A stretch of DNA of 52,540 nt. Origin: Planctomycetota bacterium. Lineage in GTDB: Bacteria > Planctomycetota > Phycisphaerae > SM23-33. The translations under genes and the position numbers were made by a program. The stretch is taken from contig JAJRYB010000082.1 of the NCBI GenBank assembly GCA_024275995.1, positions 1-52,540 of the forward strand, read 5' to 3'. A model generated the notes under the pieces. The model searched no databases. It saw only the letters and a program-made list of their open reading frames with translations, and was not told the DNA's origin. This document shows, in pieces, positions 8,962 through 11,922 of the stretch (its first letter is position 1; each line of letters opens with the position of its first letter).

Positions 8962-10491
8962 TCAGTGCGTCAGTGCATATGCGAATACGTTCACGCCCAG
9001 TCGGATCGCGTCGGCGTCGGAGTATCCGCGATTGTACGCGAAGCCCAGTTGTTCCCACCCGGTCGAAAGCCCGAAGCTCGAATAGATCACGCCGAGTTGC
9101 CCGTCGATGGTAATACCCTCCAGCGCCGGGGCGTTCAGTGAAGGCTGCTGCGCCTTGACCAGGTCGGTGTAATCCACCGCGGCGATCCTGTAGGGCACTT
9201 GGTACGCGGGCGACTTGAGGTCCAGCCTCTTGAGCGTCGCCTTGGGCAGCACGCGCTTTATCTCCCTACGAAACGCCGCGTCGAACGCTTTTCGCCCGGC
9301 CGCTGCGTCCGCGACGAGCATCCCTCCACCGGCCAGGTAGCTTCGCAGGCGTCCGACTTGCGCGTCGGTCAGCTTGAAGTCCCTAAGGCCCGTCATGTAG
9401 AGCACCGGGTGTTTGAATACGTCCACGTTGTCCAGACCGACCACCTCGCGTTTGAATTGCACGTTGAGGGTGGTGTTCTTCTGGATGTACTTCATCAGGT
9501 TCGGCAGGGCGTGCGGGGTGGGGTCCCAGTCGCCGTCGTGTACGATCTGCGCGATTACGAGCTGGTCGCGCGTGGCGTTGTCTTTCTGGTAGTATATCTT
9601 CTCGGAACCCCACTGGCGGGCGTACTGGAAGTTCGCCAGCGTCGTAGTGATGATATTAACGCCCAATGCCAGCGCGTCGTCCTGGTGATAGAGCGTCCCG
9701 CCTTCGATGGGGTTCTTTACGACGTCCCACCCGCAGTTCAGGTCGATCGGCGAGAAGATGATAGCCGCTCGGCAGCCGAGATACACCGCCTCCAGGTAAG
9801 GCGGCATGGATCGGAACGGTTCGGAGTTCTTTCGGACTCGCATTCGCGTGATCTTGAAGTAAGCGTTGAACAGCGGCGAGTCGGTGTCTATGGGCGCCAG
9901 TTGTCGTTTCGGGAATATCTTCGCGATCTCCATCCTGGCGCTCTTGCGGAATTCCTCGCGCCCGCCCTGGGCGTGGACCACGAGCGTTCCACCGTCGTAG
10001 AGGTAGCGTCGGAGTTTCGCGACGATACCCTCGCCGAGTTTCGGCATGGGGGTCCATCCGGTGATGTAGAGCAGGGGCAGCTCCGTGGGGTCCCATGAAA
10101 ATTTTTGCAGGCTCGTCGGAACGAAACGATACCGGATTTTCAGCCGCTGATTCGCGTAGTGCATCAGGCGTTCGATGTCTATCTGCGTGGTCGGGAAGGC
10201 GCTGACGGAGAGGCGTTTTCCATCGACGATCTTAAATTGCGTGTCGGAGAAATGGATCATGCCGATAAGGGCGGGCGGCGCCGGTTGGCGCTTGCGTTCC
10301 GAACGTCGCAGGGGTGTCGCCGGCAGCGGTAGAGGAGGCAGGCCTTCGGCGGCGCTGCGGCGCTGGGGTTTGGCGCGTGGAGGTTTGCCGGCCTTGGGAT
10401 TTTTCCAATCTCCGTGGACGCTCGCCGAGACCAGCAGGAGTCCCGTCAAAGCCAGAGACGCCGATACCAATCTTACCCGTCGTGGTGACAT
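8962..10491 (-). CDS. Secreted protein with two DUF4159 domains
   Basis: This 509-residue protein has a signal peptide (M-S-P-R-R-V-R-L then a hydrophobic run to about residue 25, A-S-V-H-G), a basic proline-rich linker, and two successive DUF4159-like units. The first (about 90-300) contains L-L-Y-I-T-G and a later L-G-V-N-I-I-T. The second (about 310-509) contains V-L-Y-M-T-G-L and ends L-G-V-N-V-F-A-Y-A-L. DUF4159 proteins resemble class I glutamine-amidotransferase-like folds in some planctomycetes; no catalytic triad is visible to me. ATG 10491 is preferred over the open frame to 10569 because the signal peptide starts there. Function unknown. Confidence 0.8.
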   Translation of the reverse strand: MSPRRVRLVSASLALTGLLLVSASVHGDWKNPKAGKPPRAKPQRRSAAEGLPPLPLPATPLRRSERKRQPAPPALIGMIHFSDTQFKIVDGKRLSVSAFPTTQIDIERLMHYANQRLKIRYRFVPTSLQKFSWDPTELPLLYITGWTPMPKLGEGIVAKLRRYLYDGGTLVVHAQGGREEFRKSARMEIAKIFPKRQLAPIDTDSPLFNAYFKITRMRVRKNSEPFRSMPPYLEAVYLGCRAAIIFSPIDLNCGWDVVKNPIEGGTLYHQDDALALGVNIITTTLANFQYARQWGSEKIYYQKDNATRDQLVIAQIVHDGDWDPTPHALPNLMKYIQKNTTLNVQFKREVVGLDNVDVFKHPVLYMTGLRDFKLTDAQVGRLRSYLAGGGMLVADAAAGRKAFDAAFRREIKRVLPKATLKRLDLKSPAYQVPYRIAAVDYTDLVKAQQPSLNAPALEGITIDGQLGVIYSSFGLSTGWEQLGFAYNRGYSDADAIRLGVNVFAYALTH

Positions 10492-10663
10492 TGCAGGCCC
10501 TTTCACGCAATGGCGGTCGCGGCCGCCGGTGCAGACAAATCGCCCAAAGCCCCCCCCCGCGATCTCCAACTCTTATAGAACGCGCCCCGGAGCGCAGAGG
10601 GAGCAGTTATTCTGAAAAAAACCCACCCTCGTTATTGTCCCATCATGGGCGATGGTTTACTTA
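10492..10663. other. Intergenic stretch, DUF4159 gene to MITE
   Basis: I see no gene here. The right end (10640-10660) contains what was the 3' untranslated part of the TPR lipoprotein gene before the element at 10664-10936 inserted. Reading the minus strand from the insertion point, the first codon completed would have been AAG followed by TAA. Confidence 0.5.
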
Positions 10664-10936
10664 GAGTCCCTAACAGAATGCCGCGTGAGCCGCGTTGTGG
10701 CGAGAATCGGATGGCTGCGAGGAAGGGCTTTCGACGCCATACCTCGTTACGGTATTGCGAGGAGTCCTGACGAAGCAGACGCCGATTCTCGCCGCAACCC
10801 TTCGGGACGCGGGTCTTTTGCCCGCATCCCGCGTCGCTCGAAAGTCAATGATGCGGAAGGCATCATATCCTCCTCGCTCCTTGGCTGCGAACAAAATACC
10901 TCGCGTCGCGGCCACGGGTCATTCTGTTAGGGACTC
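10664..10936. mobile_element. MITE-like element with 17-bp perfect terminal inverted repeats
   Basis: The 273-bp segment is bounded by gagtccctaacagaatg at 10664-10680 and its exact reverse complement at 10920-10936. TTA lies directly outside each end (10661-10663 and 10937-10939), consistent with a 3-bp target duplication. Imperfect similarity of the ends continues inward. The interior is rich in secondary structure: ATGATGC/GCATCAT around a 5-base loop near 10840-10862, and a 10-bp G+C stem around a 7-base loop near 10803-10829. No transposase is present, so it is non-autonomous. An open frame of 81 codons crosses it on the minus strand, but it looks like no known protein and has no clear ribosome binding site. 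The right end supplies the last two codons and stop of the adjacent TPR gene. Confidence 0.8.
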
Positions 10937-11181
10937 TTACCCATCAACTCGCGGATTCTTCGATGGGCAAAGGAAACATTGCTTGAATTGAACTGTTCGT
11001 GCTGTATGGCCAGTTTGTAGCATTCGACGGCCTTGGCCTTGTTCTGAAGGCGGTAGTCCCACACCGTGGCGGCCTGGAAGCGCGCCGGTTTCAGGATGTT
11101 CTGGTCCCACTGCCATGCGCGCTCGTACCAGCGCACCGCGCGCAGGTTCTTGTTGAAGTACTCCTTGTATATTTCCCCGAT
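10927..11181 (-). pseudogene. C-terminal TPR part of the lipoprotein gene, beyond an in-frame TAG
   Basis: Directly after the TAG at 11182-11184 the same frame continues I-G-E-I-Y-K-E-Y-F, then R-W-Y-E-R-A-W-Q-W and C-Y-K-L-A-I-Q-H. These are tetratricopeptide-like helices of the kind expected at the end of the upstream frame (P-N-S-T-K-V-A-L-A-A-Y). The frame ends M-G-K-S-P-stop, where the Ser, Pro and stop codons are encoded by the terminal repeat of the element at 10664-10936. Without the insertion and with one TTA copy, the gene would have ended M-G-K-stop. It could be re-initiated at ATG 11136 as a short separate product, which I consider less likely than a single gene broken by one nonsense codon. 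Confidence 0.75.
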
Positions 11182-11922
11182 CTAGTACGCCGCCAAAGCG
11201 ACCTTGGTGGAGTTAGGCCAACGGTTCACCAGACGCCGGAAATGGATCAGCGCCTGACGCTGCTTGTTGTAGTCCGTTGTGATAAATGTCCGCAGGAGAC
11301 CCTTCCCGCTGTTATGAAGCTTGAGCGCCTTGGCGTAAAGCGCATCGGCCTCGGGGACGACCTCCACCGGCTTGAGCTCTTTGCGTGGGATTTCAGCGTC
11401 GAAGAAATACATGTACGTCCGTTCGGGGAACAGGCGCATCTGCATGTTGCGGATCCGCAGGGCCTTGTAAGAACCAGGCGCCGTCCGATCGTAAAACTCC
11501 GCCAGTTCGGCGACCGCGTTCACATAGGTCTTGCGAGCGCTGAGAGCGTATTCCACCAGCAGTCGTTCGTCGGCGTTTTCCAACGACTCGCCCTGGGGTG
11601 GTTCGATCTTCGGCAGACCTTCCCACTGGAACGTCTGTGCCGTTTTCAGATTATCCGCCTCGTCGCGCGCCCAGTTGTACTTGTCCATGTTACCGACCTT
11701 GTAGTAGTAACTTTTGAGGACCTTCAGCCGGTAATCGTAGTTGACGCGCGCCGCCTCTACGGACGTAGCCGCCGCCAGTTCCGCAGGGTTGTTCCGGCTC
11801 ACGGCCAGTATGCGGACCAGCTTGCCCTTTACGCGTGGTTCGGATGGTTTGGAGTTGCAACCAACGGGCAGAGAAAAAACCGCGACGCCGGCAAGTACGA
11901 TCTTGATTATTTCCCGTTTCAT
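11182..11922 (-). CDS. TPR-containing lipoprotein, N-terminal part up to an in-frame TAG
   Basis: This part has 246 residues, starting M-K-R-E-I-I-K-I-V-L with a lipoprotein signal ending S-L-P-V-G-C. It would be lipidated at Cys22 and face the periplasm. The rest is mostly helical and contains TPR-like spacing (E-A-D-A-L-Y-A-K-A-L and H-F-R-R-L-V-N-R-W-P). AAGGAG precedes ATG 11922, so that start is preferred over 11961. It ends at TAG 11182-11184, but the same frame continues with clear TPR sequence to 10927, giving a full product of about 331 codons. Its function is unknown; TPR lipoproteins often scaffold envelope complexes. The break may be a real nonsense mutation or a sequence error. 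Confidence 0.78.
   Translation of the reverse strand: MKREIIKIVLAGVAVFSLPVGCNSKPSEPRVKGKLVRILAVSRNNPAELAAATSVEAARVNYDYRLKVLKSYYYKVGNMDKYNWARDEADNLKTAQTFQWEGLPKIEPPQGESLENADERLLVEYALSARKTYVNAVAELAEFYDRTAPGSYKALRIRNMQMRLFPERTYMYFFDAEIPRKELKPVEVVPEADALYAKALKLHNSGKGLLRTFITTDYNKQRQALIHFRRLVNRWPNSTKVALAAY

Follow-up and report, generated by a model that had tools for sequence, protein, structure and literature searches.

A MITE that replaces stop codons at gene ends in Planctomycetota and looks like a new, structured kind

The window, i.e. the whole stretch of 52,540 nucleotides of a Planctomycetota bacterium which was analysed (contig JAJRYB010000082.1), contains a mobile element which has supplied a new stop codon to the gene at whose end it inserted, and whose body is built of two inverted structured domains. 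At the DNA level a MITE has indeed replaced a stop here, which is an event of a known kind. The element itself looks like a new kind of structured MITE, the module that it carries having a putative function.

Results

The element, its copies and their target sites

A preliminary description had proposed a MITE-like insertion of 273 bp with exact inverted ends of 17 bp between TTA direct repeats, and this is what we found: the element spans positions 10664-10936, its left end is identical at 17 positions out of 17 to the reverse complement of its right end, and a TTA stands on either side (Table 1). Terminal inverted repeats, a target-site duplication, a short length, the lack of a transposase and many copies with unrelated flanks are the attributes of a MITE. 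About 15 related copies, full or partial, occur in the 2.64 Mb host genome and more are found in other genera; the copies in the same genome mean that the element is not due to chance. With at most 2 mismatches the 17 bp end occurs 21 times, against 0 times for a reversed control pattern.

Table 1. Coordinates of the features of the element and of the two neighboring genes
Feature	Positions	Strand	Remarks
DUF4159 gene, co-directional, downstream	8962-10569	-	true start probably internal, e.g. 10449
Target-site duplication, left copy TTA	10661-10663	.	TNA duplications also at other copies
Left terminal inverted repeat GAGTCCCTAACAGAATG	10664-10680	+	
Structured domain D1, single long interrupted hairpin	10690-10801	+	covariance model R1, 111 bits
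Structured domain D2, inverted diverged copy of the domain of D1	10803-10911	-	R1, 31.5 bits, E 1.3e-4
Right terminal inverted repeat	10920-10936	-	contains the stop TAA of the minus-strand gene (10927-10929)
Target-site duplication, right copy TTA	10937-10939	.	
Putative lipoprotein gene, weakly TPR/YfiO-like, 3' end inside the element	10927-11922	-	in-frame TAG at 11182-11184
In-frame TAG	11182-11184	-	Tyr in 24 of 29 orthologues

Direct flanks of 3 bases, which had been expected at the other copies too, were checked in 35 elements of several genomes and genera, chosen by their ends alone: they are identical in 25 of the 35, where they read TTA, TAA or TGA, and some copies are mismatched, so that the expectation holds for many copies and not for all. 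When the strands are pooled the target consensus is YTWAR, of which TNA is duplicated. Sizes fall into classes of about 50, 110-173 and 220-283 bp, which seem to correspond to bare ends, to a single domain and to a pair of domains, few copies having been checked by eye; a simple motif count gave no confirmation of the one-domain reading for the 110-173 bp class. Four of the smallest copies are mobile hairpins of 48-53 bp, made of nearly nothing but terminal repeats (L257:2555-2604, L258:2562-2609, L220:3094-3146 and L221:2852-2904) and still flanked by perfect TTA or TAA duplications. As these ends-only copies are mobile too, the module is dispensable for insertion. Four loci of another genome (L239, L246, L252 and L254 of G007) are apparent hybrids, with one GAGTCCC-type end and one GGGGCTCTAACAGAATC-type end. 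Plasmid and phage collections gave no match.

The stop codon of the lipoprotein gene

On the minus strand, the reading ATG GGT AAG AGT CCC TAA across the right junction was confirmed: the stop belongs to the element and the protein ends in RELMGKSP. Joining the flanks with a single TTA gives ATG GGT AAG TAA, i.e. ELMGK and a stop, as had been proposed for the empty site. This reconstruction is supported by the C-termini of the orthologues and by conserved synteny. Among 29 relatives, which belong to the same family or a neighboring one, the protein mostly ends near the same place (e.g. ELTGK, ELTGQ, ELTGS, ALMGQ or ELMGQ, followed by the stop), and about 17 orthologous loci have the DUF4159 gene next, on the same strand, with no such insert between the two genes and a gap of usually about 130-290 nt if measured up to the start of the alignment. 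Hence an orthologous gene without the insert, which the preliminary description had suggested looking for, does exist, in loci free of the element where both genes are still adjacent. Among the relatives of the host gene, those that are named are MAGs of Planctomycetota, several of them Phycisphaerae; the nearest orthologue has 61% identity, and no empty site of a sister strain was found in the genome-contig collection, where the closest relative of the gene has 54% identity. A C run at 10550-10559, close to where the DUF4159 gene begins, is a possible slippage site.

Two parts of the preliminary description fared less well. The label of TPR gene is weak, the only matches (YfiO/TPR_6) lying below the cut-off, and the statement that the protein was kept intact is unproven: the assembled gene has an in-frame TAG about 84-85 codons before the inserted stop, which may therefore never be reached. 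At the position of this TAG the 29 orthologues have Tyr (24), Phe (3), Arg (1) or His (1), and no other listed orthologue from the same family has an internal stop. After the TAG, 84 codons are open and have a coding-like score. Either a recent nonsense mutation or an error in the assembly of the MAG could account for the TAG.

Recurrence of the replacement

The insertion supplying a stop had been presented as one clean case; it stands at the DNA level, but it is not isolated, as it recurs in several genes and genera. We took 47 paired copies from six genomes and called genes on the in-silico empty sites with an iteratively trained gene caller; these calls are heuristic and most of the genomes are draft assemblies. 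Twelve of the 47 copies have a stop codon at a distance of at most 6 nt; the corresponding figures are 2.9% for TWA sites as a whole, 6.8% for the TWA sites which are not deep in genes (p 5e-5) and 11% for YTWAR control sites outside genes (p 0.004). At 20 nt or less there are 19 copies out of 47, against 10.5% (p 1e-7) and 16.7% (p 1e-4) of the latter two kinds of sites. Compared with YTWAR sites outside genes, the excess at stops shrinks to 2-3 fold. Positions deeper than 60 nt within a gene are occupied by a single copy of the 47, but by 57% of the controls. To explain the crowding at gene ends, selection against damage to genes suffices, without any special targeting of stops.

Among the 19 copies near stops, 12 leave the protein unchanged and the rest alter it by -1 to +5 residues. 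Tails in SP followed by a stop are found at five copies in three genera, and one further tail is KIP followed by a stop. At six copies the target starts one base 5' of the stop; in those of them whose gene-side copy is TTA, this TTA and the first G of the end recreate a TAG. Stop replacement is seen in intact genes as well. Elsewhere in the host genome, a copy of 170 bp (L286/L287; C116:8807-8982 of G000 and the end of C131) exactly fills the space from a hisH-like stop codon to the beginning of a hisA-like gene. Both genes were identified by eye from their ORFs, and the hisH-like stop TAA is the duplication. C116 and C131 share this copy at their ends, which shows that the assembly breaks at the repeat.

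Relationship with IS5 elements

TNA targets are known from IS5 subgroups. Other genomes of the class contain autonomous candidates for the mobility of the element, namely IS5-type elements with closely similar ends: complete IS elements of about 870-906 bp have related GAGCNCCTAACA-type ends and two overlapping ORFs, which match DUF4096 (5e-29) and DDE_Tnp_1 (2e-22), and are flanked by TAA/TAA or TGA/TGA in some cases and by mismatched TNA in others. At contig ends of one genome (G046), the C-terminus and the N-terminus of an IS5-type transposase adjoin GAGCGCCTAACAGAATG or GAGCCCCTAACAAAATG ends. A DUF4096/DDE_Tnp_1 transposase between matching ends is thus a property of the partners and not of the element itself. 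The IS427 group typically has a pair of overlapping ORFs (PMC3281130), and the layout of the partners agrees with this. From the TNA flanks and from the matching ends on two-ORF IS5 elements of the class we concluded that, as far as sequence can tell, the element is a MITE of IS5 type. The first DDE_Tnp_1 loci considered as partners in relatives were rejected, their ends being mismatched with those of the element. In a profile search of the host genome, the IS5 transposase families PF01609 and PF13340 were absent; hence either mobility has ceased there or the assembly lacks the partner.

Fold and covariation of the body

The fold of the element is far more stable than that of shuffled sequences on both strands (z -9.5 and -10.8). 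In many elements, the full-length form is made of two inverted copies of one domain of about 110 nt, which is described by the model R1. Covariation was calculated on 23 full-length copies from several genera and two families, assembled blind to structure and deprived of their terminal repeats: 96.7% of the cells are pairing, 33 of the 59 pairs have changes on both sides, against 19.2 +/- 2.3 in shuffles, and covariation reaches a score of 0.382, where shuffled and slid controls give 0.165 and 0.05-0.08, respectively.

In the same 23 copies, the single stem mismatches of D1 are G-T in 12 cases and A-C in 2, those of D2 read in its own sense are G-T in 7 and A-C in 0, and the outer stem of the terminal repeats has 23 G-T against 20 A-C. 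Matches selected by the model agree (30 loci against 5), with an ascertainment bias, as the model favours G-U. A strand symmetry seen in whole elements (17 G-U against 12 A-C cells) was overturned once the cells were split by domain and read in their own sense. The excess of G-U over A-C, which is seen within the domains but does not extend to the end stem, suggests that either domain may act as a single folded strand (RNA or ssDNA) and the ends as duplex DNA; the signal is carried by few cells (19 against 2 in the structure-blind set) of related sequences and is an indication only. Rfam (4227 families) gave no match in the window region; at 12 divergent loci it gave only weak matches, which lie outside the element.

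Distribution of the domain and possible exchange of ends

R1, the E-values of which are rough, was run on 397 genomes of the class and on 392 taken from the phylum; it has matches in 53 and 40 of them, respectively, and often many in one genome. The loop motif GCAAGG..GACG..GAGGA..ACGCCGC is kept in distant matches and the stems differ. The module is found between differing ends, for example GAACCCCTAACA with TTA/TTA, GACGCTGTTTCAG with TAA/TAA and GCCCTGTCTGAAAA with CTAG/CTAG. Within the host genome, bodies which are about 90% identical have two end types and do not group by end, GAGTCCC-type and GGCACYC-type ends standing on the same body (L282-L285 against L277-L281 and 10664-10936). This means that ends were exchanged or bodies converted. 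The literature that was searched, with incomplete coverage, gave no description of the domain.

Discussion

We are confident of the account taken as a whole, in which an IS5-type MITE would have been inserted by a trans-acting transposase and would have replaced a stop, survivors remaining at gene ends and the two-domain body being conserved. An IS5-family transposase would act in trans on the non-autonomous element, insert it at a YTWAR/TNA target and duplicate TTA, here at a point four bases before the stop codon of the lipoprotein gene. At the TAA-side end, TNA followed by GAGTCCCTAAC carries stops in two of the three frames, so that with insertions at gene ends the host protein acquires a new stop after 0-5 residues. 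Insertions which break genes were probably purged by selection, a cause that would account for the observed distribution and outcomes, and the survivors would thus crowd gene ends. The body is more than filler, its two inverted domains of about 110 nt having a fold that is conserved over the phylum, with terminal repeats that vary. The domain would act as a folded single strand, RNA or ssDNA, and may owe its maintenance to a function beneficial to the element; for instance, it may fold within the host operon's transcript or be recognised by a protein of the host or of the element.

A native terminator or intergenic feature, with no insertion at all, would suit a stable fold located between two co-directional genes, yet it has practically no chance of being right in view of the target-site duplication, of the many copies with unrelated flanks and of the orthologous loci in which the adjacent genes are free of the element. 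Far more serious is the reading in which the host gene is a pseudogene, without functional stop replacement at this locus, to which we give a little under an even chance: the TAG stands where most orthologues have Tyr and the other listed orthologues of the family have no internal stop, but the 84 codons beyond it are open and coding-like, a single-base assembly error would also account for it, and the replacement recurs in intact genes.

Regarding the body, the element could be an ordinary MITE with a functionless palindrome, the pairing of which would be maintained by hairpin-templated repair or gene conversion, its placement at gene ends being a residue of selection. The homogenised copies within a genome, with similar bodies mixed among terminal-repeat classes, are consistent with this, as is the fact that most control TWA sites are intragenic, where a single one of the 47 copies occurs. 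We nevertheless consider it rather unlikely, because the loop motif persists over the phylum despite the changes in the stems, and because the excess of G-U over A-C, present in each domain in its own sense and not in the end stem, is not what symmetrical repair predicts. That the domain would be a functional folded RNA (or ssDNA) module, with the terminal repeats as an interchangeable vehicle, seems to us evenly balanced: covariation above that of shuffled and slid controls, multicopy matches across the phylum, the same module between different ends and the strand-specific excess of wobble pairs argue for it, whereas the lack of any Rfam match and the mobility of the 48-53 bp copies argue against it.

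Several known systems resemble the element in part. IS427/IS1031-type elements of the IS5 family (DUF4096 + DDE_Tnp_1) have similar terminal repeats GAGCNCCTAACARAATG and TNA duplications and are found in the same class; unlike them, the element is without transposase and carries a structured body which those ISs lack. In Coxiella burnetii, QMITE1 and QMITE2 overlap the 3' ends of genes by 1-50 bp and alter their last codons, one QMITE provides a C-terminal extension, and the direct repeats of QMITE2 are of 7-9 bp (PMC5896051). They are a published precedent for a MITE at gene ends altering last codons, but here the stop comes from the TNA target together with the terminal repeat, and in several genera. 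REPINs, or inverted REP doublets, are two inverted hairpin units with compensatory changes which are mobile together (PMC3116915), as are the paired units of the element. REP units are recognised by GTAG-tagged ends and an associated RAYT. Unlike REPINs, the element is bounded by IS5-type terminal repeats, has TNA duplications and a domain of about 110 nt. ERIC/RU, NEMIS, RUP and other bacterial MITEs, which we likened to it by description only, are likewise short, structured, intergenic and multicopy, and to our knowledge no case has been described among them in which terminal repeats are exchanged around a single conserved module.

Target preference and end sequence jointly let insertions at gene ends regenerate stops, which is observed in several genera and against controls. 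Tentatively, and at somewhat less than even odds, we propose that a folded RNA or ssDNA module of about 110 nt, often an inverted pair, spreads in the phylum Planctomycetota between many IS5-type terminal repeats, that selection keeps its fold and its loop motif as stems and ends change, and that it would have a function of its own rather than be a decayed transposon. An aligned, covarying module present throughout a phylum inside MITEs makes the function of MITE interiors directly testable, and it is this structured, end-exchanging module which deserves to be followed up.
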